Assembly: GCA_947258405.1 (NCBI GenBank)
Contig: CAMYIE010000001.1
Span: forward strand, 1-64,000
Length of the DNA: 64,000 bases
Direction: 5' to 3'
DNA from: an uncultured Eudoraea sp.
Lineage (GTDB): Bacteria > Bacteroidota > Bacteroidia > Flavobacteriales > Flavobacteriaceae
Shown: one piece after another, positions 18,784 through 42,823 of the stretch
How positions within the stretch are numbered: position 1 is the stretch's first letter
How the letters are laid out: every line of letters begins with the position of its first letter
Position numbers and translations under genes: made by a program
Notes under the pieces: model-generated
The model's database searches: none
What the model saw: the letters and a program-made list of their open reading frames with translations, nothing else
Told to the model about the DNA's origin: nothing

Positions 18784-20703
18784 TTATTGAGTCAGGTAAT
18801 AGACAAAGAAAATAACGATCACTAATACACCGGCCACAAAGGCCATTGCATAGTCCTGAACTTTGCCCGATTGCATAGCTTTTATTTTTTCCGATGTCCT
18901 TACGGTACTATTACCAATCCCCACCATGGTTCCGTCTACAACCTGGCGATCGAACTTGGCTGCGGGTTCAGCAACTCTTTTGAAGAGCACTTTTCTGGTG
19001 ACAAACAGATAGACCTCGTCGATATAAAACTTATGATAGGACCATGTATATAATTTCCCCAGGGACGCGGCTAACCTGTCAGGGAGATCGGTCTCTTTCT
19101 TGTAAAAGAGCCATGCCAGTCCGATACCTGCAATTCCCATTAACACGGCTGTGATAGCAAGAGGGACATTGATATGGACATCGAGAGCTATTCGATCTGC
19201 ACTGATGTATTGCCCAAAGGGCACAAAACCGGCAAGGGCACTGAAAATTGCGAGTATAATCAGGGGTATTGTCATTGTTGCGGGCGACTCATGAGGTGTT
19301 GTTGCGTATTCCGGATCCTTTTTCCAAAAAATACCGAAGTAGATCCGGAACATGTAGAAGGCGGTTAAGCCGGCGACCAGCAACGCGATGGTATAAAGCA
19401 GCATATCTTTTTCATAAACCGCCGCCAAAATTTCGTCCTTGCTCCAGAAACCGGCTAGTGGTGGGATACCTGCAATGGCAAGGGCAGCTATGAGAAAGGT
19501 AATATGAGTGATCGGCATATGTTTTCGGAGTCCGCCCATATCTTTTAGGTAATTGCTGTGAACAGCGTGGATTACCGAGCCGGCACAGAGGAATAAGAGA
19601 GCCTTGAACATGGCATGGGTAAAGAGATGGAACATCGATGCCATATAGCCTAGTCCGGCTTCTCCGTCATATCCCGAAACGCCAAGGGCAAGCATCATAT
19701 AGGCAAGCTGCGACATCGTGGAATACGCCAGGACACGCTTTATGTCGTTTTGAGTTATCGCAATTATGGCGGCAAAAAGCGCCGAAAAAGCTCCTACGAA
19801 GGCCACAACCTGCAAAATGATTCCGTCTTCGACAAAATAATACATCGGGAACAGACGCGCCACCAGATAGACACCGGCTACCACCATGGTCGCCGCATGA
19901 ATCAGAGCCGAAACGGGGGTAGGCCCTTCCATCGCATCTGGCAGCCAGATATGAAGTGGAAACATAGCCGATTTCCCTGCGCCGCCTAAAAATATCAGCA
20001 ACAGCCCCCAGCTGAGTACAGACATTCCAAAAAAGGAAGATGCAGCCCAGCTAAGCAATGGGCTTCCCTGTGGATCGTTGAGGAGTTCAAAATCGTATGT
20101 ACCGGTATAAAAGCCAATGATAAGAATACCGATCAGGAATCCCAGATCTGCAAAACGAGTAACGATGAACGCTTTTTTTGCGGCCGCTACGGCAGAAGGC
20201 TTGGTATAGTAAAACCCGATCAGCAGGTAGGATGATACCCCCACTAACTCCCAGAAAATATAGATCTGGAACAAATTAGTAGCCAGGACCAGTCCATACA
20301 TGGAGAACGTAAACAAGGATAAAAAGGCAAAAAATTTCGTGTAGCCCGGATCTCCTTTCATATAACCACGACTGTAAATATGCACCATCAGCGAAACAAT
20401 GGAGACCACGAGAAGCATCATGATCGATATCGGATCGAGAAGTACTCCCATATCGATCCTAAGGGTTTCGGTAAAATTCATCCAGGCGGTTTTATGAACA
20501 ATTGCCTGATATGCCCCGCCGTCCTTACCTAAAACAAAGAAGTACTGATAGGCGACTTTTATCGAGAGCAAGGTAGAGATCAAAAGACCGAGTACACCGA
20601 TAATTCCTGAAACGGCTGGTTTAATTCGGTTGTAAAATATTCCCAGCACAAGGAAAACAGCGAGGGGAATAAAGGGAATAAGAAGAATCTCGGCGTAATT
20701 CAT
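18784..20703 (-). CDS. nuoL: complex I subunit L (distal antiporter-like subunit)
   Basis: The largest membrane-arm subunit, 639 residues (usual range 600-660). Marks include the helix-5 segment FWELVGVSSYLLIGFYY with the key glutamate, PLHIWLPDAMEGPTPVSAL, SQLAYMMLALG and PLAGFWSKDEIL. The long C-terminal part after about residue 500 includes the transverse helix that braces the membrane arm. It follows nuoK by 12 bp. Confidence 0.96.
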   Translation of the reverse strand: MNYAEILLIPFIPLAVFLVLGIFYNRIKPAVSGIIGVLGLLISTLLSIKVAYQYFFVLGKDGGAYQAIVHKTAWMNFTETLRIDMGVLLDPISIMMLLVVSIVSLMVHIYSRGYMKGDPGYTKFFAFLSLFTFSMYGLVLATNLFQIYIFWELVGVSSYLLIGFYYTKPSAVAAAKKAFIVTRFADLGFLIGILIIGFYTGTYDFELLNDPQGSPLLSWAASSFFGMSVLSWGLLLIFLGGAGKSAMFPLHIWLPDAMEGPTPVSALIHAATMVVAGVYLVARLFPMYYFVEDGIILQVVAFVGAFSALFAAIIAITQNDIKRVLAYSTMSQLAYMMLALGVSGYDGEAGLGYMASMFHLFTHAMFKALLFLCAGSVIHAVHSNYLKDMGGLRKHMPITHITFLIAALAIAGIPPLAGFWSKDEILAAVYEKDMLLYTIALLVAGLTAFYMFRIYFGIFWKKDPEYATTPHESPATMTIPLIILAIFSALAGFVPFGQYISADRIALDVHINVPLAITAVLMGIAGIGLAWLFYKKETDLPDRLAASLGKLYTWSYHKFYIDEVYLFVTRKVLFKRVAEPAAKFDRQVVDGTMVGIGNSTVRTSEKIKAMQSGKVQDYAMAFVAGVLVIVIFFVYYLTQ

Positions 20704-20715
20704 AGGTCTTTACAT

Positions 20716-21033
20716 TCAATATTTCATGGTTTCCACATCTTTTACTTCCACAGAACTTATCTGTCGGTAAAGGTTGATAATGATAGCCACAGCCAAAGCT
20801 GTTTCTGCGGCTGCCACCGCAATGATAAAGATGGAGAACACCACGCCCTGCAATACATCAGGATAGAGATATTTATTTATCGCAACGAAATTTACCACCG
20901 AAGCATTCAACAGCAACTCGACTGAAATCAGTATCGAGATCAGGTTTTTCCTGGTAATAAATCCATATACCCCGATAAAAAATAAGATGGATGTAACGGT
21001 CAGTATTTCATATAGGCTTACATCTTCTATCAT
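20716..21033 (-). CDS. nuoK: complex I subunit K
   Basis: Small three-helix membrane subunit of about 105 residues. The helix pair ILFFIGVYGFITRKNLI and ISVELLLNASVVNF carries the conserved glutamate of the proton path, and AAAETALAVAIIINLYRQ is the third helix with its conserved glutamate. ATG 21033 is preferred over the in-frame TTG at 21042, because NuoK proteins usually start a few residues before the first helix. It practically abuts nuoJ. Confidence 0.94.
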   Translation of the reverse strand: MIEDVSLYEILTVTSILFFIGVYGFITRKNLISILISVELLLNASVVNFVAINKYLYPDVLQGVVFSIFIIAVAAAETALAVAIIINLYRQISSVEVKDVETMKY

Positions 21034-21038
21034 ATAGG

Positions 21039-21554
21039 TCAACTGTTTTTATCCATTAGCTTGGTTCCTTTAGCGATAACAATAGCACCGATCATGGCTG
21101 CGAGCAGCAGGATACTGATCACTTCAAAAGGCAATATGAAACCGCCGTCTCCATAACTCAACAGTCGGTCACCTATGTCTTGGGTGGTAGTGCTTTTTGT
21201 ATTCTCCACCATTTCAAACTCAAAACTGTGTATGGTATAGATAAATACCCCCATGCCTACAAGGCAAAGAACAGCGGTGGTGATTCTTTTAGCTATCGAT
21301 GCCATTTCGAGCCTCATTTCAATATGGTGTACGAGCAAAACTGAAAAAATGATCAGCACAATGATGCCTCCTGCATAGACAGTTAGCTGAATAGCGGCCA
21401 GGAGATTGTAATCGATAAGGAAAAAGAAACCGGCTATGCTGATCAGTACAAAAGCCAGGTAAACTACAGATCGCAGCATTCTGCGGCTGTTGACCGAGGC
21501 GACAGCAAAAGCAATAATTACAAATGCTAAAATGTAGAAAATAATTCTTTCCAT
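21039..21554 (-). CDS. nuoJ: complex I subunit J
   Basis: Membrane subunit of 171 residues with five predicted helices. The signature helix LTVYAGGIIVLIIFSVLLV, with its pi-bulge tyrosine-glycine region, is clear. It ends with the hydrophobic helix VISILLLAAMIGAIVIAK. The gene starts 3 bp after nuoI. Confidence 0.94.
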   Translation of the reverse strand: MERIIFYILAFVIIAFAVASVNSRRMLRSVVYLAFVLISIAGFFFLIDYNLLAAIQLTVYAGGIIVLIIFSVLLVHHIEMRLEMASIAKRITTAVLCLVGMGVFIYTIHSFEFEMVENTKSTTTQDIGDRLLSYGDGGFILPFEVISILLLAAMIGAIVIAKGTKLMDKNS

Positions 21555-21557
21555 AGG

Positions 21558-22034
21558 TTAGTCTTCAACTCCAGGTCTCAATTTAGACCCTGGCTTGTTC
21601 AGGACTCGGGTTAGCTGGGTTCTGTCGTATACCGAATTTTCAAAGTTTTGCCCCCATTTGATCGCGTCGGTAGGGCAAACATCTATACATAAGCCACACA
21701 TGGTGCAAAGGCTTAGATGATAAACGAACTTGTCTATTTTCTTTTTTTTCTTACCGCTATGTTCATCAATCCCCCGATCCCAAATTATTTCTATCGATCC
21801 GTTAGGGCAGGCTATTTCGCATTTTTGGCAACCGGTACAGGTATGTTCATTATTCACATCATGTGGCATGATTACTTCTCCCCGGAAACGATCGAACATT
21901 TTCAGGGTATCCCGATTGTCTGGATACTGTTGGGTAATGGCTCCTTTACGAGAATTCAAAAAGTATTTTCCCGTTACGCCCATCCCTGTCAGAAGTGTTT
22001 TAATACCATGGAATATTTCTGAGAAATAGCTCAT
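21558..22034 (-). CDS. nuoI: complex I subunit I (dicluster 4Fe-4S subunit)
   Basis: Peripheral-arm subunit of 158 residues carrying clusters N6a and N6b. The two CxxCxxCxxxCP motifs are at Cys66-69-72-76 and Cys110-113-116-120. The length is normal and there is no extra domain that would replace NuoEFG. In complexes lacking NuoEFG, this end of the peripheral arm is where a ferredoxin is thought to dock; that is inference for this organism. Confidence 0.96.
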   Translation of the reverse strand: MSYFSEIFHGIKTLLTGMGVTGKYFLNSRKGAITQQYPDNRDTLKMFDRFRGEVIMPHDVNNEHTCTGCQKCEIACPNGSIEIIWDRGIDEHSGKKKKKIDKFVYHLSLCTMCGLCIDVCPTDAIKWGQNFENSVYDRTQLTRVLNKPGSKLRPGVED

Positions 22035-22038
22035 CGGC

Positions 22039-23103
22039 CTAAAATTTTATAGTTAGATTTAGCCATACAAGCACGGCCATAATGACAATATTCATAAGGT
22101 TCATGGGCAAGAGGTATTTCCATTCGAGCGTTAACAGCTGATCGATACGCAACCGTGGAAATGTCCACCTGAACCACATCATCAGGAAAACAAGTAACAT
22201 AGTCTTGAGCATGAACCAGAATACACCCAACACCGGGATACTTTCGGTAATTCCAAAAGGAGAAAGCCAGGCTCCGAAGAAAACAGTGGTGGCAATAGCA
22301 CAAATAATAAACATATTGATAAATTCGGCCAGGAAGAAATAAGCGAATTTCATTCCTGAATACTCCGTGTGGAAACCTGCCCCAAGCTCCGATTCGGCTT
22401 CCACCATATCGAAAGGTGCCCGGTTAGTCTCGGCAGTGCCCGAGATCATAAAGATCATAAAAGCTATTATCGCAGGAATATGTCCCTGAACGATGAGCCA
22501 ACCGCTTTTCTGCACTTCTACTATCTGTGACAGCTGCAATGTCCCTGTGAGGAGTACCATAGTAAGTAGCGAAAGGCCAACGGAAAGCTCATAGCTGATG
22601 GTCTGAACGCCACTTCGCATTGCCCCGATAAGGGCATATTTATTGTTACTTCCCCATCCTCCGAGCAGGATCCCTATTACTCCAATAGAAGAAACTGCAA
22701 TCAAAAAAAACAGACCGATGTTTATATCAAAAGCCTGAAACTCCTGAGTAAATGGAAATACGCTGAGCGCCATCAGTGAAGATATGATCACAAAATATGG
22801 TGCAAGGTTATACAGGAAGGTGTCTGCTCTGTTGGTCCCGGTTAGCTCCTTGGAAAGGAGTTTGAGGGCATCAGCCATAGTTTGAAGCAATCCCTGAAAG
22901 CCCACTCTGTTGGGGCCTAAACGCTGTTGAAACCATGCGGCGATCCGTCTTTCCAGAAGAACCAGGAACAGACCGGCAATTGCAAATATCCCGAGGTAAA
23001 CGAGGGCAATCAGCACCATTTCAACCAGAGATGCAGCCCATTCCGGCATAGCACCGTATAACCAGTCGTGAATATTCCCGGTGATGCTCAAGGCTGAACT
23101 CAT
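22039..23103 (-). CDS. nuoH: complex I subunit H (quinone-site membrane subunit)
   Basis: Membrane subunit of about 354 residues at the junction of the two arms. Marks include ERRIAAWFQQRLGPNRVG near the N-terminus, the glutamate-rich loop APFDMVEAESELGAGFHTEY, and the quinone-tunnel segment WFRWTFPRLRIDQL. ATG 23103 is preferred; an in-frame GTG at 23121 would add six residues. It directly follows nuoD except for a repeat-bearing gap, whereas the standard operon has nuoE, nuoF and nuoG between them. Confidence 0.95.
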   Translation of the reverse strand: MSSALSITGNIHDWLYGAMPEWAASLVEMVLIALVYLGIFAIAGLFLVLLERRIAAWFQQRLGPNRVGFQGLLQTMADALKLLSKELTGTNRADTFLYNLAPYFVIISSLMALSVFPFTQEFQAFDINIGLFFLIAVSSIGVIGILLGGWGSNNKYALIGAMRSGVQTISYELSVGLSLLTMVLLTGTLQLSQIVEVQKSGWLIVQGHIPAIIAFMIFMISGTAETNRAPFDMVEAESELGAGFHTEYSGMKFAYFFLAEFINMFIICAIATTVFFGAWLSPFGITESIPVLGVFWFMLKTMLLVFLMMWFRWTFPRLRIDQLLTLEWKYLLPMNLMNIVIMAVLVWLNLTIKF

Positions 23104-23132
23104 AATCAGGTTATTTATCACTTATTCTCAAT

Positions 23133-23208
23133 TTCCAACTTCCAACTTCCAACTTCTTTTATCCACCGAATCCGCCTGAGGCGGAGAAGGTGGGCAACTT
23201 CCAACTTC
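23133..23208. repeat. TTCCAAC repeats flanking a nested palindrome in the nuoD-nuoH gap
   Basis: Three tandem TTCCAAC units lie at 23133-23153 and a further unit at 23199-23205. Between them is a nested inverted repeat: outer CCACC (23163-23167) with GGTGG (23189-23193), and inner TCCGCC (23171-23176) with GGCGGA (23180-23185) around TGA. No coding frame uses it. It resembles a small interspersed intergenic repeat and sits at the exact place where nuoEFG would be in a 14-gene operon. Confidence 0.8.
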
Positions 23209-23214
23209 CCTTTC

Positions 23215-24336
23215 TCACCTATCGATATCCGGTATCACCAGATCCAGTGTCGCCATGGTGGCCACCAGATCACCAATTTTTCCACCTACTGCTATATGAT
23301 TGAGCAGGGAAAGATTGGAGAATCCCGGAGATCTGAATTTTAGTCTGTAAGGACTCTTTGTCCCTGTACTTATAATATAAACCCCAAGCTCGCCCCTGGC
23401 GGTCTCAACTCTCTGGAAGTACTCCCCTTTCGGGAGTTTGATAACGGCTTTAGTAGGGATTCTGAAATCTCCTTCAGGAATGTTATCGATCAATTGTTCA
23501 ACGATCGACAAGGACTCCCACATTTCCTGAATACGCACGGAATAGCGCGCGAATGTATCGCCCTCAGTTCGTATTGCCTCATTAAAATCAACCTGACTTA
23601 GTGCGCTGTAGGGATGATATTTTCTTACGTCGCATGAATAACCCGAACCGCGGCCTACCGGTCCTGAAGCCCCGAATGATATCGCATCTTCCCTGCTTAG
23701 TACGCCCACACCTTTGGTGCGTTTATGGAATATCACATTATCGGTAAGTAAACGGTCGTATTCAGGGATTTTAGTCTTAAAATGGGTGATGAACTCCTTT
23801 ACCCTTGAAACAAAATTAGGATGGATATCAAACATCAATCCGCCCGGTACATTGTAATTCATTGTTAATCGGGCACCACAGGTCTCCTCGAAAATATCGT
23901 TAAGCAACTCCCTGTCCCTGAACCCGTAGAAAAATGTAGTGAGTGCCCCCACATCCATACCCATGACGCCCCACCAAAGACAGTGGGAGGAGATCCGGGT
24001 TAGTTCCCCGATGATGGTACGTATCACCTTTACGCGTTCCGGTATTTCCATTTCCAGCGCCTTCTCAACGCACAGGCATACGGCCTCGTTATTGATGTTG
24101 GCCGACAGGTAGTCCATTCGGTCTGTAAGGTGAACGATTTGCTGGTAGCTATCCCTTTCACACATCTTTTCAATAGATCTGTGGATATAACCCAGGTCTG
24201 GCTCTACCTTCTTAATGATTTCCCCGTCGATAGTAAGCAATAGCCGAAGTACTCCATGGGTAGCCGGATGTTGGGGTCCCATATTGATAAAGTATTCCTC
24301 GGACTTAAAATTGCTCTTGACGGTTGTATCTTCCAT
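23215..24336 (-). CDS. nuoD: complex I subunit D (49-kDa-type, quinone site)
   Basis: Peripheral-arm subunit of 373 residues that shapes the quinone pocket with NuoB and NuoH. The N-terminal signature INMGPQHPATHGVLRL is intact, with the quinone-binding histidine. Other marks are DLGYIHRSIEK, DRMDYLSA, GARLTMNYNVPGG and the C-terminal DLVIPDIDR. NuoC and NuoD are separate genes here, with a 5-bp gap. Confidence 0.96.
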   Translation of the reverse strand: MEDTTVKSNFKSEEYFINMGPQHPATHGVLRLLLTIDGEIIKKVEPDLGYIHRSIEKMCERDSYQQIVHLTDRMDYLSANINNEAVCLCVEKALEMEIPERVKVIRTIIGELTRISSHCLWWGVMGMDVGALTTFFYGFRDRELLNDIFEETCGARLTMNYNVPGGLMFDIHPNFVSRVKEFITHFKTKIPEYDRLLTDNVIFHKRTKGVGVLSREDAISFGASGPVGRGSGYSCDVRKYHPYSALSQVDFNEAIRTEGDTFARYSVRIQEMWESLSIVEQLIDNIPEGDFRIPTKAVIKLPKGEYFQRVETARGELGVYIISTGTKSPYRLKFRSPGFSNLSLLNHIAVGGKIGDLVATMATLDLVIPDIDR

Positions 24337-24341
24337 GCAGT

Positions 24342-24806
24342 CTATTTGATGATCATATTGATTTCATCCACATAATCCTTTCTGAGCGGAAATCCTTCCC
24401 ATTCTTCGGTTAGGAAGAGCCGCTTTAAATTTGGGTGATTACTAAAAGTGATTCCAAAAAAGTCGAATACCTCCCTTTCATGGAAATCAGCAGTGTACCA
24501 GATAGAACTTACCGAATCTAAAGTCGGTTGATCCCTGTCTTTGGTCTGAACCCTCACCACGACACTGTGGCGGTGATTGGTGGATTCCAGGTGATAGATC
24601 ACCCCGAGTGTCTCACCCCAGTCTACACCTGACAGGCAATAGAGGTAGTCGAAACTACTTTGCTCATCTTCTTTTAATCGTCTCATCAAAGCGAATAATT
24701 GATCGGGTGCCACTTCAATGTTCAGAAATTCAGAACCTTCTTCCCAGAATTCAAGTTCCGGGAACCAACTGTTAATCAACTCCTTTAAAGCCTCGTTATT
24801 CATCAT
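24342..24806 (-). CDS. nuoC: complex I subunit C (30-kDa-type)
   Basis: Peripheral-arm subunit of 154 residues. The family signature [17 protein letters not shown], followed by HPNLKRLFL and the end [10 protein letters not shown], is clear. There are two adjacent ATG codons at 24806 and 24803; the first overlaps the nuoB stop by four bases, which points to translational coupling. It has no redox centre. Confidence 0.95.
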
Positions 24807-25393
24807 TTTTCGTAAATACCTTCGTCAAAACCTTCGATGGGGTTTATCTTATTTTTTCTGTTTTCACGGCGTATCTTATCCTGTAACATGAGCATTCCTT
24901 CGAGTAGTGCTTCTGGTCTCGGAGGGCATCCAGGGACATATACATCAACTGGTATAACATGGTCTGCTCCCTTTACTACAGAATAGGTGTTGTAAAAGAA
25001 AGGTCCGCCTGAGATCGCACAGGCGCCCATGGCGATAACATAGCGCGGTTCTGCCATCTGGTCGTATAGCCTTCTCAATACAGGTGCCATCTTGTTAACA
25101 ATGGTCCCTGCTATAATGATGAGGTCTGCCTGCCGGGGGGAAGGTCTTGCCACTTCAAAACCAAAGCGAGAGTAATCGTGCCTGGAGGCACCTGTCTGCA
25201 TCATTTCTATGGCACAACAACTGGTGCCGAAATAGAGCGACCAGAGTGAATTGGACCTGCCCCAGTTGATGATTTTATCTAAATTGGTTACCACGATATT
25301 GGCGCCGTTTCCAGCAGGGATAACCTTGCCAGGAAAATCTTCCGGTATTTTGTTATGTTCTTCTATTCCCATTCCAATGCTCCTTTTTTCCAT
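24803..25393 (-). CDS. nuoB: complex I subunit B (N2 cluster subunit)
   Basis: Peripheral-arm subunit of 196 residues carrying the terminal cluster N2. Its ligands are visible: the tandem Cys59-Cys60 ([10 protein letters not shown]), Cys125 (MGACAISGG) and Cys156 ([10 protein letters not shown]). The ATG at 25393 overlaps nuoA by 31 bases; an in-frame ATG at 25372 overlaps by only 10 and may be the true start, giving 189 residues. Confidence 0.95.
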
Positions 25394-25713
25394 GCATATA
25401 TTAAACCCAATCCCAGAATTATGAGGAATATCAAAACCTCAATAAAAGCTACAAATCCAATTCCTTCATAGACTACGGCCCATGGTACAAGGAAGGCCAC
25501 CTCCACATCGAAAATCAGGAAGAGGATGGCAAAAAGATAATAACCCACCTTAAACTGAACCCAGGTAGGGCCTATGGTCGTCATACCACTTTCGTAAGGT
25601 TCTCTTTTTTGAGGATTGTCCGATTTGTGGGAAACCAGGTTAGATAAAAAATTAGCTCCCGCAACAAGAACAATACCTGAAAGTAAGAATACAATTATAG
25701 CTTCTGATCCCAT
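25363..25713 (-). CDS. nuoA: complex I subunit A
   Basis: Small three-helix membrane subunit of 116 residues. The family signature [16 protein letters not shown], followed by [20 protein letters not shown] with the conserved acidic pair, is clear. It starts 16 bp after korB, so the complex I genes are transcribed directly behind the 2-oxoacid oxidoreductase genes rather than from their own promoter. Confidence 0.95.
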
Positions 25714-25729
25714 TGGGTATTAATTTTAT

Positions 25730-26740
25730 TTAGCTTACTTCATAGGTCTCACCAGAAAAGAACAAATCGTCCGTTTTGGCAAAACTGGAATCGGCTTTTA
25801 CCTGTCTGGTAACCTCATCCACTCTTTCTTCCAAAGTGATATCTGTAAAGCTTCGAATAATTCCGGTGACCAGCGGGTATTCCGACCTAACCAGCATTTG
25901 ATGTAGAGTGGGATCCTGGTTTTCGGCATCATGAACTATCAAGTCGTCTTCTGTTATACCATTTTCACCGATGGTTACCACCTCAAGTTTTAGCCCATTT
26001 AATACAAGGCCCTTATCCCTTTCTTTGCCAAAGATCATGGGTTTGCCATGTTCCACGAACAACTGCTTATCTTGCCTAACAGTTTTATCGGTGTATTTTG
26101 AGAAGGCCCCGTCGTTAAATATTGGGCAGTTCTGCAATACTTCTATCAATGAAGTGCCTTTGAATTTTGCGGCATCTACAAAGACCTGAGTCATCTCTTT
26201 TGGGGTATTACCCCCGACTCTGGCAAAAAACCTCGCCTGGGCTCCTATGGCCAGTTCCCCCGGTTGAAATGGCGGTTGTGTGTTGCCATAAGGCGAAGAT
26301 TTAGTTCGTTGCCCCACGATGGAAGTTGGTGAAAATTGTCCTTTGGTAAGCCCGTAGATCTCATTGTTGAACAGCACAATATTGAGGTCTAAATTTCTGC
26401 GTAACACATGGATAAAATGATTTCCTCCAATAGCCATAGCATCTCCGTCTCCGGTGATGATCCAAACCTGTAGATTTGGGTTTGCCAGTTTTACACCCGA
26501 TGCGATTGCCGGGGCTCTCCCATGGATACTGTGCATACCATAAGTATCCATATAATATGGAAACCTCGAAGAACATCCTATTCCTGAAATGAAAACTACA
26601 TCTTCCTTCTGTATGCCCATTTCAGGAAGGGCCTTTTGCATTGCTCTTAAAATGACGTAGTCATCACAACCAGGGCACCAGCGAACTTCCTGATCGCTCG
26701 CAAAATCTTTAAAAGTATACTGCTTAACCGTTGATTCCAT
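25730..26740 (-). CDS. korB: 2-oxoglutarate (2-oxoacid):ferredoxin oxidoreductase, beta subunit
   Basis: TPP-binding beta subunit of 336 residues. The thiamine-diphosphate motif GDGDAMAIGGNH starts at residue 97, and NNEIYGLTKGQFSPTS is the typical KOR/2-oxoacid signature. Cluster ligands include Cys22 and Cys25 (WCPGC) and the cysteine in ISGIGCSSR. The enzyme decarboxylates a 2-oxoacid to the acyl-CoA and reduces ferredoxin. 2-Oxoglutarate is the usual assignment for this Bacteroidota form; other 2-oxoacids are possible. It starts 3 bp after korA and is followed by nuoA. Confidence 0.9.
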   Translation of the reverse strand: MESTVKQYTFKDFASDQEVRWCPGCDDYVILRAMQKALPEMGIQKEDVVFISGIGCSSRFPYYMDTYGMHSIHGRAPAIASGVKLANPNLQVWIITGDGDAMAIGGNHFIHVLRRNLDLNIVLFNNEIYGLTKGQFSPTSIVGQRTKSSPYGNTQPPFQPGELAIGAQARFFARVGGNTPKEMTQVFVDAAKFKGTSLIEVLQNCPIFNDGAFSKYTDKTVRQDKQLFVEHGKPMIFGKERDKGLVLNGLKLEVVTIGENGITEDDLIVHDAENQDPTLHQMLVRSEYPLVTGIIRSFTDITLEERVDEVTRQVKADSSFAKTDDLFFSGETYEVS

Positions 26741-26743
26741 GTT

Positions 26744-28597
26744 TTAGAGATATTGTTTGAATTTTTCAACTAACTCGCTGTTTCCGAACGGCAAGCCCTG
26801 CACCTTGTTGAACTGTGCGTATTTATAACCTTCCAGCCTTGATTTTAAAACCGTGATAAATTGCCCGGAATTAAGTTCGCAGACCAGGATACGATCAAAT
26901 TTATCGAAGACCTCCTTTGTATTCGAAGGAAGTGGGTTGATATAGTTGAAATGAGCCAGCCCTATATCCTTATGGCCTTCCTGAGTCATTTGCTTCACGG
27001 CAGAGTAAAGCGAGCCATAGGTGCCGCCCCATCCAACCACCAGGAGTTTGCCTTCGGAACAGAATTCAGGTTTGATATGAGGGATATACTTTTGAACCCT
27101 GTTCACTTTTTCGGCTCTTATATCGGTCATATATTGATGGTTCTCGGGATTATATGACACATTGCCGCTTACTTTATCTTTTTCCAAACCTCCTATCCTG
27201 TGTTCAAGACCAGCAGTGCCGGGCACTGCCCAGTCTCTGGCCAGTGTTTCCTCATCCCGGTCGTATGGATGCCAGGTATCGGGAGCACTCTTTAGCTTGC
27301 GAGGTACGATGTCTGGCATTTCTGAGGTTGACTGGATCTTCCAGGGGGCAGAACCATTAGCGATATAACCATCGGTAAGCAGCAATACCGGCGTCATGTG
27401 TTCTAATGCTAATTTAGATGCCTCATATGCAAAATTGAAGCAATTCGATGGGGTGCTGGCTGCGATCACGATGATCGGGCTTTCACCATTACGCCCATAA
27501 AGCGCTTGCAAAAGATCGGATTGTTCTGTTTTTGTAGGCAGACCTGTAGAAGGCCCCCCTCTTTGAACGTTTACCACCACCAGCGGAAGTTCGAGCATCA
27601 TCGCGAGCCCGAGGGCTTCACCTTTAAGGGCCAGACCCGGTCCTGAAGTTGTGGTTATGGCAAGATCGCCCGCAAACGCGGCCCCGATAGCAGAACTGAT
27701 ACCGGCAATCTCATCTTCGGCCTGTAATGCTTTTACGCCAAAGTGTTTGTGTTTGGCCAGTTCGTGGAGGATATCGGAGGCGGGAGTAATCGGATAGGAA
27801 CCCAAAAATAATTCCAATCCGGATTTTTCCGCTGCAGCGAGGAAACCCCAGGCAATGGCCGTATTGCCCATAATAATACGATAGGTGCCGGAAGCCATTT
27901 TGGCCGGGGCAACCGTATAGGAATTCGGTATCAGTTCAAGGGTTTCGGCAAAATAATAACCAGCATTTAACACCTTGGTGTTGGCTTCGATTATCGCCGG
28001 TTTTGATTCGAATTTTTTGTTGAAGAACTCGATGGTATATTCCGTGGACCGGTTATACATCCAGTAGACCATGCCCAAAGCAAACATATTTTTACTCCGA
28101 ACGATACTTTTATTGTCCAATCCCTGAACATCTTTGAGGGTCTCTTTCGTTAAAGAGGTCATCTTTACCTCGATCACCTGAAAGTTTTCAAGGCTATCGT
28201 CTTCCAAAGGATTGGATTCATATTGTGCCTTTTCCAAATTCTTCTTGCTAAAGGAATCAATATCTACTATAAGGGTGTGACCAGGTTTTAACGCATGCAG
28301 ATTGGTTTTAAGCCCTGCCGGATTCATGGCAACCAGCAGATCCACATTATCGCCGGGTGTACTTATCTCCACACTTCCTATATGTACCTGAAATCCGGAT
28401 ACCCCATAAAGGCTACCCTGAGGAGCTCTGATCTCGGCCGGATAATTGGGAAAAGTTGCCACATCATTACCGAACATGGCCGAAGTATCTGAGAACTGTG
28501 TGCCCGTAAGTTGCATCCCGTCTCCGGAATCACCGACAAATCGCACAACTACCGCCTCCAATACTTCTTGCTGAGGGCTTTCTTTAGCTGTAATCAT
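26744..28597 (-). CDS. korA: 2-oxoglutarate (2-oxoacid):ferredoxin oxidoreductase, fused gamma-alpha subunit
   Basis: Fused subunit of 617 residues. Residues 15-190 are the gamma domain, starting with FVGDSGDGMQLTG. From about residue 230 it is the alpha (pyrimidine-binding) domain, with YPITPASDILHEL, AEDEIAGISSAIGAAFAG and TTSGPGLALKGE, and the transketolase C-like domain follows (GWGGTYGSLYSAV). It forms the catalytic dimer with KorB and gives reduced ferredoxin from 2-oxoacid oxidation. It is the first gene of the leftward operon that ends with nuoN, so KOR and complex I are made together. A dyad-plus-minus-7 promoter lies about 65 nt upstream. Confidence 0.92.
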   Translation of the reverse strand: MITAKESPQQEVLEAVVVRFVGDSGDGMQLTGTQFSDTSAMFGNDVATFPNYPAEIRAPQGSLYGVSGFQVHIGSVEISTPGDNVDLLVAMNPAGLKTNLHALKPGHTLIVDIDSFSKKNLEKAQYESNPLEDDSLENFQVIEVKMTSLTKETLKDVQGLDNKSIVRSKNMFALGMVYWMYNRSTEYTIEFFNKKFESKPAIIEANTKVLNAGYYFAETLELIPNSYTVAPAKMASGTYRIIMGNTAIAWGFLAAAEKSGLELFLGSYPITPASDILHELAKHKHFGVKALQAEDEIAGISSAIGAAFAGDLAITTTSGPGLALKGEALGLAMMLELPLVVVNVQRGGPSTGLPTKTEQSDLLQALYGRNGESPIIVIAASTPSNCFNFAYEASKLALEHMTPVLLLTDGYIANGSAPWKIQSTSEMPDIVPRKLKSAPDTWHPYDRDEETLARDWAVPGTAGLEHRIGGLEKDKVSGNVSYNPENHQYMTDIRAEKVNRVQKYIPHIKPEFCSEGKLLVVGWGGTYGSLYSAVKQMTQEGHKDIGLAHFNYINPLPSNTKEVFDKFDRILVCELNSGQFITVLKSRLEGYKYAQFNKVQGLPFGNSELVEKFKQYL

Positions 28598-28663: not shown

Positions 28664-28737
28664 CAAATATAATTGCGCCTTTGTCACCGATTTATGACTT
28701 TTATCATTGATCGGAGGAAAATAGAATTATAATTTCA
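28664..28737. promoter_or_regulatory. shared divergent promoter/operator of kor-nuo and ferredoxin
   Basis: A 12-bp dyad (TGACTTTTATCA, 28695-28706) lies centrally. Leftward, exactly 23 nt away, the minus strand has TATATTTG (28671-28664), a perfect TAnnTTTG -7 box for korA. Rightward, also exactly 23 nt away, is TAATTTCA (28730-28737), a weaker -7-like box 22 nt before the ferredoxin ATG. The dyad would be centred near -41.5 of both predicted start sites, the classical class II activator position. The same layout occurs before nifJ and the tonB-like gene. Confidence 0.65.
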
Positions 28738-28759: not shown

Positions 28760-29110
28760 ATGGCTATTATCATCACAGACGAATGTATCAATTGTGACGC
28801 ATGTTTATCAGAATGCCCAAACAATGCCATCTATGAACCGGATCAGGAATGGGCGTATTCCGATGAGACTGCCCTTAGTGGCTCAACAACTACTCCTGAT
28901 GGCCGGGATGTGGATGCCGATGAGGAAAATGAACCTATTTCCGACGAATTCTATTATATAGTACCAGATAAGTGTACCGAATGCAAAGGATTTCATGATG
29001 AGCCACAGTGTGCTGCTGTATGTCCTGTAGATTGCTGTGTTCCAGATGAGGATCATGTTGAATCAGAGGAGGTACTGCTGGAGAAAAAAGCATGGATGCA
29101 CGGAGAATAA
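28760..29110 (+). CDS. dicluster 4Fe-4S ferredoxin, Alvin-type with acidic insert
   Basis: Soluble electron carrier of 116 residues. Cluster 1 ligands are Cys9-12-15-19 (CxxCxxCxxxCP). Cluster 2 has the expanded spacing of Allochromatium vinosum-type ferredoxins: Cys72-x2-Cys75-x8-Cys84-x3-Cys88, followed by CC at 92-93. That type is known for very low potentials. Between the clusters is an unusual acidic insert of about 45 residues (25-69, with DVDADEENEP). It is divergent from korA under a shared promoter site and upstream of nifJ, so it is the likely carrier between PFOR/KOR and complex I. Confidence 0.93.
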   Translation: MAIIITDECINCDACLSECPNNAIYEPDQEWAYSDETALSGSTTTPDGRDVDADEENEPISDEFYYIVPDKCTECKGFHDEPQCAAVCPVDCCVPDEDHVESEEVLLEKKAWMHGE

Positions 29111-29277: not shown

Positions 29278-29347
29278 TGACAAATATCATATTCTGAGCG
29301 GCGTTAGCCCACTATTTTTATGCACGTTCTCAGGTATGGTTATACCT
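29278..29347 (+). promoter_or_regulatory. nifJ promoter region with dyad activator site and downstream inverted repeat
   Basis: The dyad TGACAAATATCA (29278-29289) is followed after exactly 23 nt by TATTTTTA (29313-29320), one base from TAnnTTTG. The transcript would start near 29325, about 80 nt before the nifJ ATG. A second small inverted repeat, AGGTAT-GGTT-ATACCT (29332-29347), falls just inside the predicted transcript. Confidence 0.6.
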
Positions 29348-29406: not shown

Positions 29407-32400
29407 ATGAAAAGGAACTTTCCAAAACTCATCTGCGATGCGAATGAAGCCGTTGCGCGTATCGCCCACAAGACTAATGAAGTATGTGCCATTTACCCTA
29501 TTACCCCTGCTTCACCCATGGGGGAACATGTGGATGTTTTTAGCTCCGATGGCGAAAAGAATATCTGGGGAAACGTTCCACGGATTGTTGAAATGCAGAG
29601 TGAGGGAGGCGCTTCAGGTGCCGTTCACGGTTCGCTTCAGGCAGGAGCACTCACTACCACCTTTACGGCTTCTCAGGGTTTGTTGTTGATGGTGCCCAAT
29701 ATGTATAAGATGGCTGGAGAATTATTGCCAGGTGTAATACATGTTGCAGCACGAACGGTTGCCACTCATGCACTTTCAATTTTTGGTGATCATTCCGATG
29801 TTATGGCAACCAGGCAAACAGGATTCTCAATGCTATTTGGAGGTTCGGTACAGGAGGCGATGGATTTTGCATTAATCTCCCAGGTGGCAGCCCTGAAAAC
29901 TAGAGTTCCATTCCTAAATGTATTTGACGGTTTTAGGACCTCCCACGAGATCTCCAAGATCGAGAATATTCCAGATGAAGTGATCAAAGCTATGATGCCC
30001 GAAAAAGAGATCATGGAACATAAGAATCGTTCCCTCGATCCTGATCACCCTGTGGTGAGGGGTACATCGCAAAACCCCGATGTATTCTTTCAGGCCCGTG
30101 AGGCAGCCAATACCTATTACGATGAGGTGCCACAGATGGTGGAAGATATCATGACAGATTTTTATAATCATACGGGAAGGCGATATAGCATATTTTACTA
30201 TCTGGGCCATCCTGAGGCAGAACGGGTAATTGTCATCATGGGATCTGGTCAGGGTGCTGTCCGTGAAGCTGTGGAGGCTATGCTCGACAAGGATGAGAAA
30301 GTCGGGGTACTTTTCGTAAGGCTTTATCGTCCGTTTTCCGTAAAACACTTTATAGATAACATACCCGAAACCGTAAAGAAAATAGCTGTTCTCGATCGAA
30401 CAAAAGAGCCCGGTAGTACAGGTGAACCGCTCTACCTGGATGTAGTAGCTGCGCTTGCAGAAAGCAAACGCGCGATCCCGGTGGTAGGAGGTCGTTACGG
30501 TCTTTCATCCAAGGAGTTTACGCCGCAAATGGTAAAAGGAGTTTTTGATGAATTGAATAAATCTGAACCAAAAAACCACTTTACTGTTGGTATAAACGAT
30601 GATGTTACCCATACCAGCCTTTCTCTTGATCCGGACTTTAAAGTAAAGACACATACCATTAACTGTATGTTCTACGGATTGGGATCGGACGGTACAGTTG
30701 GTGCCAACAAGAATTCTATCAAAATTATCGGTGAGACCACTAAAAACCACGTACAGGGATATTTCGTTTACGATTCCAAAAAAGCCGGCGCACAGACTAT
30801 TTCACACCTGCGTTTCGGACCGGATCCTATCTATTCCTCATACCTGATAGACAGTGCCGATTTTATCGCCTGTCATCAGTTCAATTTCATCGAGAAATAC
30901 GATGTGATCGGCAAATTAAAATCAGGGGGAACTTTTCTATTGAATGCACCCTATGACAAGGATGAGGTTTGGAATAAAATACCCAGAAAACTTCAGGAAG
31001 GAATCATTGAGAAGAAAGCTAAGTTCTATGTGGTAGATGCTACCAAAGTGGCCCATGATGCCAAACTGGGAAAACGCACAAACACCGTGCTCCAGACATG
31101 CTTTTTTGCCATTTCCGGAGTACTGCCAAGAGAAGAGGCGATTCAAAAGATAAAGGATGCCATCGTTAAATCGTATTCTCATAAGGGAGATAAGATCGTT
31201 CAGATGAATTTCAATGCGGTAGATAAAGCCCTTGAAAATCTGTTTGAAGTAAAATATCCCGAATTGGTAACCAGTGATATCCCATTGCAACCCGTCATGA
31301 CGAATGCCCCCGATGGTTTCGTTAGCGAAGTACTTCAAAAGATTTTAGGCGGACTGGGAGATGAATTACCCGTAAGTGCCTTCCCTGTAGATGGTACTTT
31401 CCCTATGGGCACTACCCAGTACGAGAAAAGAGGAATTGCCAGTTTTATTCCGGTCTGGGACGACGAGGTATTATGTACACAATGCAACAAATGTGTTGCA
31501 ATATGTCCCCACGCCGCAATTCGGGCCAAGGTAATACCCAATAACATGCTATCTGAAGCCCCCGATTCCCTCAAAGCGGTTCCGGCTAAAGGCAGACCTT
31601 TTAACAAGGAAGAGGAATCCTATATCCTGCAGGTTTCACCTGAGGATTGTACGGGCTGTGATCTTTGTGTCGCTGTTTGTCCGGCCGAAAGCAAGGAGGT
31701 GGAAGACTTTAAAGCCATCAATATGAGACGTAAGATGGATGTTGATACAGATGAAAATGTAAACTGGGATTATTTTGTTCAGTTACCCGATTACGACCGT
31801 ACGGCACTTCAGATTACAAACCTGAAAGGCTCACAGTTTCTAGAACCTCTTTTCGAATTCTCCGGGGCCTGTTCCGGTTGTGGGGAAACCCCCTATATAA
31901 AAATGCTGACCCAATTATATGGCGACAGTATTATGATCGCAAATGCTACAGGATGTTCTTCCATATATGGTGGTAACCTGCCTACAACTCCATATAAAAC
32001 CAACAAGGATGGCAGGGGTCCTGCCTGGGCTAATTCTCTTTTCGAGGATAATGCGGAATTCGGATATGGAATGAAACTTGCCCTGAGCAAGAAACAGGAA
32101 ATAGCAGTTGGACTGCTCAGGTCATTACAATCCCTGGCAGGCTCTGAATTGGTAGAGGCTATACTTGAGAATTCTGAAGAAACAGAGACAGATCGCAGCG
32201 AAAAATTTGCCCAGATCGAAAAGCTCAAAACCATATTAGGTAAATACAAGGACAATGCCGATGCTGCAAAGCTTATCCAGCTGGCAGATTATCTTAGGCG
32301 AAAGTCGGTCTGGATCTTAGGTGGCGACGGCTGGGCATACGATATTGGTTATGGAGGCCTCGATCATGTTATGGCCTCGGGAGAGGATATAAATATTATG

Positions 32401-32937
32401 GTTCTGGACACCGAGGTATACTCAAATACCGGCGGGCAGACCTCCAAGGCTACACCACTGGGCGCAAGCGCTAAATTTTCAGTATCTGGTAAGCGAACAG
32501 GGAAAAAGAACCTTGCACTGCAGGCTATTTCGTATGGAAATGTATATGTGGCACAGGTGGCTATGGGAGCTAAAGATATGCAAACGCTAAGGGCTATTGA
32601 GGAGGCCGAAGCTTATCCGGGCCCTTCTTTGATCGTGGCTTACTCCCATTGTGGTGAACACGGCTATGACCTTAAGGAAGGTGCAGATCACCAGGTCCGT
32701 GCTGTGGATACCGGTTACTGGCCTTTATTCCGATTCGATCCTTCTAAACCAAAAGGCAAGAAATTCAAATTGGACTCCAAAGCGCCTACTAAACCCTTAA
32801 GCGATTTTATGTATAAGGAAACCCGCTTTACCAGGGTGGTTAAGGACAACAAGGAACTCGGTGAAGAATTGTTAAAACAAGCCCAGGAAGAAGTGGATAC
32901 TAAATGGGAGCGATTAGAGCTCTTTAAGACGATGTAA
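29407..32937 (+). CDS. nifJ: pyruvate:ferredoxin oxidoreductase (PFOR), single-chain
   Basis: Homodimeric enzyme of 1176 residues that converts pyruvate and CoA to acetyl-CoA, CO2 and reduced ferredoxin. Domain order is complete: pyrimidine-binding domain I (YPITPASPMGE near residue 27), domain II, the gamma domain (about 425-600), a ferredoxin domain with CTQCNKCVAICP at 690 and CTGCDLCVAVCP at 748, then the TPP domain with the cluster motif CSGCGE at 822, ATGCSSIYGG and GGDGWAYDIGYGG. No key residue is missing. It is oxygen-sensitive in many bacteria. It lies beside ferredoxin and the ferredoxin-type complex I under a matching promoter. Confidence 0.97.
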   Translation: MKRNFPKLICDANEAVARIAHKTNEVCAIYPITPASPMGEHVDVFSSDGEKNIWGNVPRIVEMQSEGGASGAVHGSLQAGALTTTFTASQGLLLMVPNMYKMAGELLPGVIHVAARTVATHALSIFGDHSDVMATRQTGFSMLFGGSVQEAMDFALISQVAALKTRVPFLNVFDGFRTSHEISKIENIPDEVIKAMMPEKEIMEHKNRSLDPDHPVVRGTSQNPDVFFQAREAANTYYDEVPQMVEDIMTDFYNHTGRRYSIFYYLGHPEAERVIVIMGSGQGAVREAVEAMLDKDEKVGVLFVRLYRPFSVKHFIDNIPETVKKIAVLDRTKEPGSTGEPLYLDVVAALAESKRAIPVVGGRYGLSSKEFTPQMVKGVFDELNKSEPKNHFTVGINDDVTHTSLSLDPDFKVKTHTINCMFYGLGSDGTVGANKNSIKIIGETTKNHVQGYFVYDSKKAGAQTISHLRFGPDPIYSSYLIDSADFIACHQFNFIEKYDVIGKLKSGGTFLLNAPYDKDEVWNKIPRKLQEGIIEKKAKFYVVDATKVAHDAKLGKRTNTVLQTCFFAISGVLPREEAIQKIKDAIVKSYSHKGDKIVQMNFNAVDKALENLFEVKYPELVTSDIPLQPVMTNAPDGFVSEVLQKILGGLGDELPVSAFPVDGTFPMGTTQYEKRGIASFIPVWDDEVLCTQCNKCVAICPHAAIRAKVIPNNMLSEAPDSLKAVPAKGRPFNKEEESYILQVSPEDCTGCDLCVAVCPAESKEVEDFKAINMRRKMDVDTDENVNWDYFVQLPDYDRTALQITNLKGSQFLEPLFEFSGACSGCGETPYIKMLTQLYGDSIMIANATGCSSIYGGNLPTTPYKTNKDGRGPAWANSLFEDNAEFGYGMKLALSKKQEIAVGLLRSLQSLAGSELVEAILENSEETETDRSEKFAQIEKLKTILGKYKDNADAAKLIQLADYLRRKSVWILGGDGWAYDIGYGGLDHVMASGEDINIMVLDTEVYSNTGGQTSKATPLGASAKFSVSGKRTGKKNLALQAISYGNVYVAQVAMGAKDMQTLRAIEEAEAYPGPSLIVAYSHCGEHGYDLKEGADHQVRAVDTGYWPLFRFDPSKPKGKKFKLDSKAPTKPLSDFMYKETRFTRVVKDNKELGEELLKQAQEEVDTKWERLELFKTM

Positions 32938-42037: not shown

Positions 42038-42080
42038 TGACAAATGTCATAGGACAAATTTGGTACTATGGGTAATTTCA
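42038..42080 (+). promoter_or_regulatory. dyad activator site and -7 box upstream of the tonB-like gene
   Basis: TGACAAATGTCA (42038-42049) is a perfect 5-bp-arm dyad. Exactly 23 nt downstream is TAATTTCA (42073-42080), identical to the -7-like box of the ferredoxin promoter. The context ACTGACAAATGTCAT differs from the nifJ site at one of 15 bases. The predicted start site lies about 16 nt before the ATG. Confidence 0.6.
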
Positions 42081-42100: not shown

Positions 42101-42823
42101 ATGCAAGTCAAAAAAAACCCTCAAGCAGATTTGAATAAGAACAGTGGTCTGTACTTCGTCATAGGGCTTGCGATTGTATTATTTGTTACATGGAGGGCCC
42201 TTGAGTATAAGACCTATCCCAAAGATAAAACTTTGGTAGACATGATTGAAGCCGTAGATGAGCTCAAAGAAGACATTCCGATTACTGAACAGATTCGGAC
42301 TACACCTCCGCCTCCACCGCCAGCAGCGCCCGAGGTGATTGAAGTTGTGGAAGACACTGAGGAGATCGAGGAAACTATTATCGAGAGTACCGAAACCAGT
42401 CAGGATGCTGTTGTTGAAGACATTTTGGATGTTAGCGATGTGGAAGCGGCTGAAGATGAAGAAGAGATCATTGTACCCTTTGCGGTTATTGAGAATGTTC
42501 CAGTCTTTCCAGGCTGTGAGAATGCAAAAAACAATGATGAACGTAAGGCTTGTTTCCAGAGGATGGTTCAGGAACATGTTCGAAAACAGTTCACCTATCC
42601 ACCTGCCGCACTTGAATTAGGGATCACTGGCCGTGTCTTTGTTCAATTTTATATCAATACCAAAGGTCAGGTTGAAAGTATCAGGACCAGGGGACCGGAT
42701 AAACTTTTGGAAAAAGAATCACACCGTATAATAGCCTCCCTTCCCGATATGTTGCCTGGGAAGCAAAGGGGGCAAGCGGTTAAAGTACCTTATAGTATAC
42801 CTATTAACTTCATTATTCAGTAG
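42101..42823 (+). CDS. TonB-like energy transducer
   Basis: Inner-membrane-anchored periplasmic protein of 240 residues. A single helix (about 18-31, LYFVIGLAIVLFVTW) follows a short basic N-terminus. Next comes a proline stretch (TTPPPPPPAAPE) and a very acidic linker (80-130, rich in E and D). The C-terminal TonB domain has YPPAALELGITGRVFVQFYI and ends with VPYSIPINFIIQ. It transfers proton-motive force to outer-membrane receptors. Its promoter site matches those of ferredoxin, kor-nuo and nifJ, which ties its control to the respiratory module. Confidence 0.9.
   Translation: MQVKKNPQADLNKNSGLYFVIGLAIVLFVTWRALEYKTYPKDKTLVDMIEAVDELKEDIPITEQIRTTPPPPPPAAPEVIEVVEDTEEIEETIIESTETSQDAVVEDILDVSDVEAAEDEEEIIVPFAVIENVPVFPGCENAKNNDERKACFQRMVQEHVRKQFTYPPAALELGITGRVFVQFYINTKGQVESIRTRGPDKLLEKESHRIIASLPDMLPGKQRGQAVKVPYSIPINFIIQ

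Follow-up and report, generated by a model that had tools for sequence, protein, structure and literature searches.

A shared dyad between divergent kor-nuo and ferredoxin promoters as a probable CRP/FNR-type class II operator in Flavobacteriaceae

Introduction

In soil, marine and freshwater communities, Flavobacteriaceae make up a major share (PMC9723704, in part), and among the matches listed from the open-licence PMC literature none describes an FNR-type regulon for this family. In the 64,000-nucleotide stretch of DNA analysed here (the window), a gene run encoding a 2-oxoacid:acceptor oxidoreductase and complex I subunits (kor-nuo) diverges from a ferredoxin gene (fd), and a single dyad lies between the two candidate -7 boxes. 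A first-pass annotation of the sequence had proposed that one CRP/FNR-family activator turns on both transcripts from this dyad, possibly in response to oxygen, redox state or a cyclic nucleotide. The locus raises three questions: whether the dyad is an activator site, whether it serves both promoters, and which regulator and signal would act through it. The answer that we favour, with good confidence, is a CRP/FNR-type class II operator belonging to a regulon of about 50 promoters and serving kor-nuo and ferredoxin, with low oxygen as its most likely signal.

Results

The kor/ferredoxin intergenic region

The features relevant to this question are the following (column identities refer to 73 aligned intergenic regions, see below):

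18784..25713, minus strand: complex I genes of the NuoA, B, C, D, H, I, J, K and L types, in line with kor (Pfam)
25730..26740, minus strand: 2-oxoacid:acceptor oxidoreductase beta subunit, korB-type (Pfam TPP_enzyme_C; best NCBIfam model TIGR02177, just below cut-off)
26744..28597, minus strand: 2-oxoacid:acceptor oxidoreductase alpha subunit, korA-type (Pfam POR_N and POR; NCBIfam TIGR03710 over cut-off)
28664..28671, minus strand: kor-nuo -7 box TATATTTG, with 23 nt to the dyad (TA and TTT columns 0.96-0.99 identical)
28695..28706, no strand: shared dyad TGACTTTTATCA, centre 28700.5 (TGA and TCA columns 0.97-0.99 identical)
28730..28737, plus strand: ferredoxin -7 box TAATTTCA, with 23 nt to the dyad (TA and TT columns 0.95-0.99 identical)
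28760..29110, plus strand: ferredoxin, 4Fe-4S dicluster type (Pfam)
29278..29320, plus strand: dyad TGACAAATATCA and -7 box TATTTTTA, 23 nt apart, upstream of nifJ
29407..32937, plus strand: NifJ-type pyruvate:ferredoxin oxidoreductase (Pfam)
42038..42080, plus strand: dyad TGACAAATGTCA and -7 box TAATTTCA, 23 nt apart, upstream of the tonB-like gene
42101..42823, plus strand: protein with a TonB C-terminal domain (Pfam)

The dyad lies exactly where the first-pass annotation had located it, with 23 nt to the -7 box on each side, and the recurrence of this spacing at nifJ and the tonB-like gene was likewise borne out at 29278 and 42038. It is an imperfect palindrome, with a TGA/TCA pair and a C at the fourth position opposite A, and the closest start codons are those of korA (28597, minus strand) and ferredoxin (28760, plus strand). 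Outer arms CCGAT...ATCGG surround the same centre (window 28687-28714); a functional role of the resulting 28-bp palindrome was rejected, the arms being probably due to chance because they occur only in the window and in one 94%-identical relative (L065).

The korA-type oxidoreductase scored over the cut-off of the 2-oxoacid family model and of none of the substrate-specific models, and no match to the NuoF family was found anywhere in the genome. The running of the kor genes into complex I genes (18784-26740, minus strand) and the lack of a NuoF match suggest a ferredoxin-driven complex I, and for these same reasons reduced ferredoxin is likely to be its electron donor.

Promoter register of the dyad

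Mapped start sites in Flavobacterium psychrophilum place a TAnnTTTG -7 box at -12 to -5 (PMC9723704, in part). A 12-bp dyad ending 23 nt upstream of such a box covers -47 to -36 and is centred at -41.5, a register that uses the box position of this relative. Provided that the -7 boxes span -12 to -5 here as well, the dyad would thus occupy the class II activator position at both divergent promoters, an assignment that our analysis supports. In E. coli, 19 of the 23 directly FNR-activated promoters with a known start have their site at -41.5 +/-4 (PMC3688515, in part).

Genome-wide occurrence and spacing of the motif

The window alone gives a modest excess over shuffled sequence. TGA-N6-TCA-N23-TANNTT matches four times with zero mismatches (the kor/fd dyad in both directions, 29278 at nifJ and 42038 at the tonB-like gene), and with one mismatch allowed there are 12 matches; shuffled sequence gives 7.2 +/- 2.5, and a total of 12 is reached by 3 of 100 shuffles. 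The window holds seven strict dyads, four of them intergenic (three with a box at 23 nt) and three coding (none with such a box), while only 5,368 of its bases lie outside the ORFs taken as genes.

We scanned the whole genome (3.27 Mb, 69 contigs) with the reversed pattern as control. TGA-N6-TCA-N23-TANNTT occurs 69 times (33+36 on the two strands) versus 7 (2+5) for the reversed pattern, and stricter half-sites in the form TGAYNNNNRTCAT-N22-TANNTT occur 50 times (24+26) versus 0 (0+0). When the gap was left free over 12-40 nt, the spacing peaked sharply at 23, which accounted for 12 of 19 matches to TGAT...TANNTTTG and for 19 of 42 to TGAC...TANNTT, no other spacing being used more than twice in either scan. 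The combination of motif and spacing is not chance.

Strict half-sites (TGAY...RTCA) are present in 55 of the 69 genome sites, and these favour promoters over coding DNA. A right-strand ORF starts between -35 and +330 nt from the -7 box in 48 of the 55, and at 14 to 73 nt in 32 of those 48; five of the 55 were flagged within an ORF of at least 60 aa by a mechanical caller whose nifJ flag, at least, is wrong.

The consensus of the 55 strict sites is [A/C]TGAYNNNNRTCAT. Beyond the searched letters only a T at -35 is strong (50/55) and the -33 region is weak; position -48 is A in 30 sites, C in 19, G in 4 and T in 2. These letters bear on two other explanations of the dyad. It could be a repressor operator, or part of the core promoter of an alternative sigma factor, and its location just upstream of the -33 region would indeed allow contact with RNA polymerase. 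We hold this to be very improbable, as the -7 box is of the sigma-A type, the -33 region is little conserved, as expected where an activator replaces it, and a spacing fixed to one base is needless for a repressor operator. The site could also be used by a CRP-type activator bound to cAMP or another ligand, with carbon or stress as the signal. The half-site of CRP is TGTGA, and no half-site of this type was seen in the 55 strict sites, where -48 is A or C in 49; the remaining evidence on this alternative, which we consider improbable, is given below with the candidate regulators.

Conservation in relatives

The genome's nearest relatives place it in the Flavobacteriaceae. We sampled the best 80 of 260 kor loci, the nearest named one among the matches listed being that of a Robiginitalea MAG (94%). 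A strict dyad is present upstream of kor in 68 of the 80, and in the 78 upstreams with at least 200 bases the dyad with a box at 23 nt is kept on the kor side in 63, versus 0.03 expected from dinucleotide shuffles. Twelve of the 80 lack a strict dyad; these include two cut by contig ends (L125, L141) and three with a weaker TGA-N6-TCA at 23 nt (L123, L130, L142). In the other seven, two of them from Aquimarina, no box lies 23 nt from any dyad. When the intergenic regions of 72 relatives with a divergent ferredoxin were aligned with that of the window (73 in total), the mean share of the commonest base was 0.86 in the dyad and 0.86 and 0.82 in the -7 boxes against 0.54 elsewhere, so that dyad and both boxes stand out. 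The class II placement at about -41.5 that the first-pass annotation had anticipated thus holds through all computable checks, namely genome scan, spacing register, promoter placement and conservation.

Two-sidedness deserves separate consideration, since the dyad might serve one promoter while the other box falls at 23 nt by chance. Two-sided dyads are indeed few in the genome (3 of 66 distinct dyads), and the ferredoxin-side spacing, which is 23 in 42 of the 80 loci and 22 or 23 in 61, is 22 in many Lutibacter loci. Coincidence is nonetheless very unlikely: a single dyad lies at 23 from both boxes in 34 of the 80 loci, a number that rises to 57 when 22 is also allowed on either side, and the ferredoxin -7 box is nearly as conserved as that of kor. 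Furthermore, two dyads replace the single one in L097, L106, L127 and L144 (Gramella, Christiangramia, Salegentibacter), the first being spaced at 23 nt from the ferredoxin box and the second at that same distance from the box of kor; L124, cut by a contig end, resembles them. Because these loci keep 23 nt for each promoter, their arrangement argues that each promoter would need its own contact at this distance. Two further dyads of the window's genome, C7:16089 and C7:22304, are flanked on each side by a -7-like box at 23 nt, the latter sitting between a thioredoxin gene and a universal stress protein gene.

Farther downstream, a dyad at 22-23 nt from a box is found within 700 nt past ferredoxin in 34 of 64 relatives, and in 32 of the 38 loci with a NifJ-like start past ferredoxin, as defined by a loose motif. 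Two records of the sample, titled Piscirickettsiaceae (L076) and Chlorobiota (L111), carry flavobacterial-type kor loci (83% and 80% identity, respectively) and are perhaps mis-binned contigs or wrongly labelled.

Apparent targets of the regulon

As apparent targets we took the 48 genes nearest downstream of strict sites and named them by Pfam, a mechanical assignment in which some entries will be wrong. They include the oxidoreductase, ferredoxin, NifJ and TonB-like genes together with those for FixS/CcoS, a cytochrome c, a multihaem cytochrome, HSP20, thioredoxin, two YgaP-like proteins and several Usp proteins. A radical SAM protein among them is HemN (TIGR00538 over cut-off). Thirteen of the 48 had no Pfam match at 1e-5. 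An alanine dehydrogenase label for the AlaDh/PNT target was dropped, the nearest NCBIfam models being transhydrogenase alpha subunits, just below cut-off, and the SufD gene is a doubtful target because its site was flagged as coding. Two sites, L005 (C2:2062-2102) and L064 (C2:50292-50332), precede small YgaP-like membrane protein genes. The former has no T following TCA and is situated where another CRP-type gene ends, perhaps a separate regulon. Under oxygen limitation, F. psychrophilum raises its cbb3 oxidase and haem synthesis enzymes (PMC9723704, in part).

Candidate regulators

Four proteins of the genome contain an HTH_Crp_2 domain. The first is an FNR-like protein of 231 aa (C3:199236-199928) encoded divergently from a P-type ATPase gene, with Pfam PF00027 (cNMP_binding) and PF13545 (HTH_Crp) above cut-off. 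In single-sequence comparison with the PDB it is matched best by chains named FNR type regulator, and it scores below the cut-off of the curated NCBIfam Fnr model NF008365 (115 bits versus 228). The neighbouring ATPase has a metal-binding N-terminal domain and is followed by a FixS/CcoS gene with its own dyad site, a neighbourhood from which it would be of the CcoI type; of the best 30 loci (the own one among them), 22 have a CcoI-like N-terminus near the FNR-like gene.

These 30 loci yielded 29 FNR-like proteins (L173 was left out for want of a full ORF), in all of which Cys7, Cys10, Cys56 and Cys109 are invariant, as they are again in all 26 of these 29 that were re-aligned. The cluster cysteines of FNR are Cys20, 23, 29 and 122. 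Cys7, Cys10 and Cys109 align with Cys20, Cys23 and Cys122, but no cysteine occupies the Cys29 position, for which reason a normal FNR cluster is not assured, and the invariant Cys56 aligns with an alanine of FNR. A search with the 40 N-terminal residues returned no match, and the best profile match, PDB 2gau, was rejected as a guide to the cluster as it has no cysteine at the Cys56 and Cys109 positions. In the recognition helix E194 and R198 are invariant in 26 of 26 aligned FNR-like proteins (the E...R that reads TGA).

The second candidate is a 350-aa protein at C7 in which Response_reg, cNMP_binding and HTH_Crp_2 domains are fused, with a kinase just upstream; kinase motifs adjoin this receiver-CRP fusion in 15 of 15 loci, own included, and its recognition helix carries E...R like that of the FNR-like protein. 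The PAS domain of the kinase of one relative (G008) has DosP and FixL as its best PDB matches, and that of the own kinase a multi-sensor kinase (10jx) and then FixL, with weaker E-values and with the CitA PAS also among the matches. A LOV core is present in three of the seven kinases examined, and that of the own kinase is backed by PDB LOV matches. At L033:8439-11445 (plus strand) a histidine kinase with a FixL-like PAS and a LOV domain adjoins a receiver-CRP fusion within a universal stress protein cluster. Near that cluster, L033:456-1379 (minus strand) encodes a MerR-type protein with a B12-binding domain (Pfam) that resembles the CarH/LitR light regulators.

The remaining two CRP-type genes, C2:2103 and C2:54593, are what a ligand-bound CRP would draw upon. 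In a meta-regulon study, a Flavobacteriales CRP/FNR homolog was read as a carbon sensor on account of its similarity to MalR (PMC8510549, in part). The C2:2103 and C2:54593 proteins are unlikely drivers: C2:2103 was rejected as genome G011 has a 56% ortholog and 0 sites, and the recognition helix of C2:54593, judged by eye, is without the glutamate.

Co-occurrence of regulators and sites

Across 37 same-family genomes, own included, the median number of sites was 35 in those with both regulators (n=11), 11 with the FNR-like protein only (n=17), 25.5 with the fusion only (n=4) and 1 with neither (n=5), on identity thresholds (at least 41% for FNR-like, at least 38% for the fusion) that were set after the counts were known. 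These medians are confounded by ancestry and genome size, four of the five genomes with neither being of at most 2.6 Mb, and one genome with a 37% FNR-like match and 4 sites (G021) is counted among them. Some carriers of the FNR-like protein have few sites (3-6; in G003, 4 versus 4 in the control). Of 23 same-order genomes, 11 contain an FNR-like match of 36-40%; these have 1-12 sites and the other 12 have 0-2, the controls giving 0-2 in both groups. As far as these genomes indicate, the two candidate regulators track the motif.

The same class II site might answer mainly to the kinase and its receiver-CRP fusion, with a narrower regulon for the FNR-like protein. Sites are more numerous in fusion-bearing genomes (Mann-Whitney p 4e-5, without correction for ancestry), G008, G028 and G032 have 35, 17 and 34 sites without a close FNR-like ortholog, and both regulators share the E...R helix. 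On the other hand, the 17 genomes with the FNR-like protein alone still show their median of 11 sites, and the kor/fd site is kept in many genera; such predominance of the fusion is possible, and we lean against it.

Discussion

From motif, spacing and conservation we infer binding and activation at the kor/fd dyad. A CRP/FNR-type dimer on it would activate sigma-A promoters, recognizable by their TAnnTTTG -7 box, from -41.5. Given the symmetry of the site and the equal distances to the two boxes, RNA polymerase would meet the same face of a single bound dimer from either direction, and this dimer could drive kor-nuo or ferredoxin. Through the shared site the oxidoreductase would be coordinated with its electron carrier and with a complex I that has no NADH module, and the three could make up one electron route from 2-oxoacid to quinone.

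As for the signal and the acting regulator at kor/fd, gene context and co-occurrence lead us to infer an FNR/FixK-type dimer that would recruit sigma-A polymerase when oxygen is low. The regulators most likely to do so are the FNR-like protein beside the CcoI-type ATPase gene and the receiver-CRP fusion with its FixL/DosP-like kinase, and it is these two candidates that make low oxygen the most likely signal. Of the signals originally offered, oxygen fits best, given the FNR-like regulator by the CcoI-type gene, the ccoS and HemN targets and the kinase PAS, whereas cAMP acting through CRP loses ground with the missing TGTGA half-site. The single activator of the first-pass annotation should probably be refined to two paralogous regulators sharing one site.

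It is tempting to speculate further, and we do so tentatively, on a low-oxygen programme of Flavobacteriaceae run by one class II regulon, with two oxygen receptors converging on the same dyad. One would be an FNR variant with an iron-sulfur cluster on Cys7/Cys10/Cys56/Cys109, in which one ligand would sit in the cNMP-type domain and no longer in the N-terminal loop; the other would be a FixL-FixJ-FixK pathway cut short, with a haem-PAS kinase that would phosphorylate the receiver directly on the CRP fusion and, in some species, a LOV domain that would add blue light as a further input. At kor/fd, the equal class II distances would force two polymerases to share one dimer.

The motif and its fixed spacing provide a ready list of about 50 promoters, and the regulon ties 2-oxoacid oxidation, via ferredoxin and a complex I without the NADH module, to what is probably control by oxygen. 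How oxygen would be sensed becomes a concrete question with the displaced cysteine and the receiver-CRP fusion, and the kor/fd site, with its equal class II distances and with relatives that have two sites, constitutes a natural test of two polymerases on one activator. As far as our literature search reaches, what is new is the regulon in flavobacteria, the two-sided class II geometry with its conservation, the displaced cysteine and a receiver-CRP fusion sharing one motif; the terms 'FNR' and 'CRP' do not appear in the main text of the F. psychrophilum study (PMC9723704, in part).

Comparison with known systems

The class II regulons of FNR and ANR, as exemplified by E. coli FNR, share with the present system the TGA-N6-TCA dyad centred at -41.5, the CRP/FNR fold with its E...R helix, a cbb3 maturation gene and HemN among the apparent targets, and a CxxC plus an equivalent of Cys122. 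They differ from it in that the promoters here have a Bacteroidota -7 box and the FNR-like protein, below the curated Fnr cut-off, has an invariant Cys56 instead of a Cys29 equivalent. The FixLJ-FixK cascade is the comparison for the second candidate, with which it shares a FixL/DosP-like PAS kinase, a receiver domain, a CRP-family DNA-binding protein and a cbb3-type target gene; here, in contrast, receiver and CRP domain are one protein with no separate FixJ step, and some kinases have an extra LOV domain. Finally, a single CRP site controls divergent promoters in 11 cases in E. coli, where a model study by El-Robh and Busby is cited (PMC3105977, in part). The principle of one-site control is therefore not new, one dimer site between two promoters controlling both there and, as proposed, here; what sets the flavobacterial site apart is a regulator not CRP-like in its half-site and identical class II distances, kept in many genera, with the site divided into two in a few loci.
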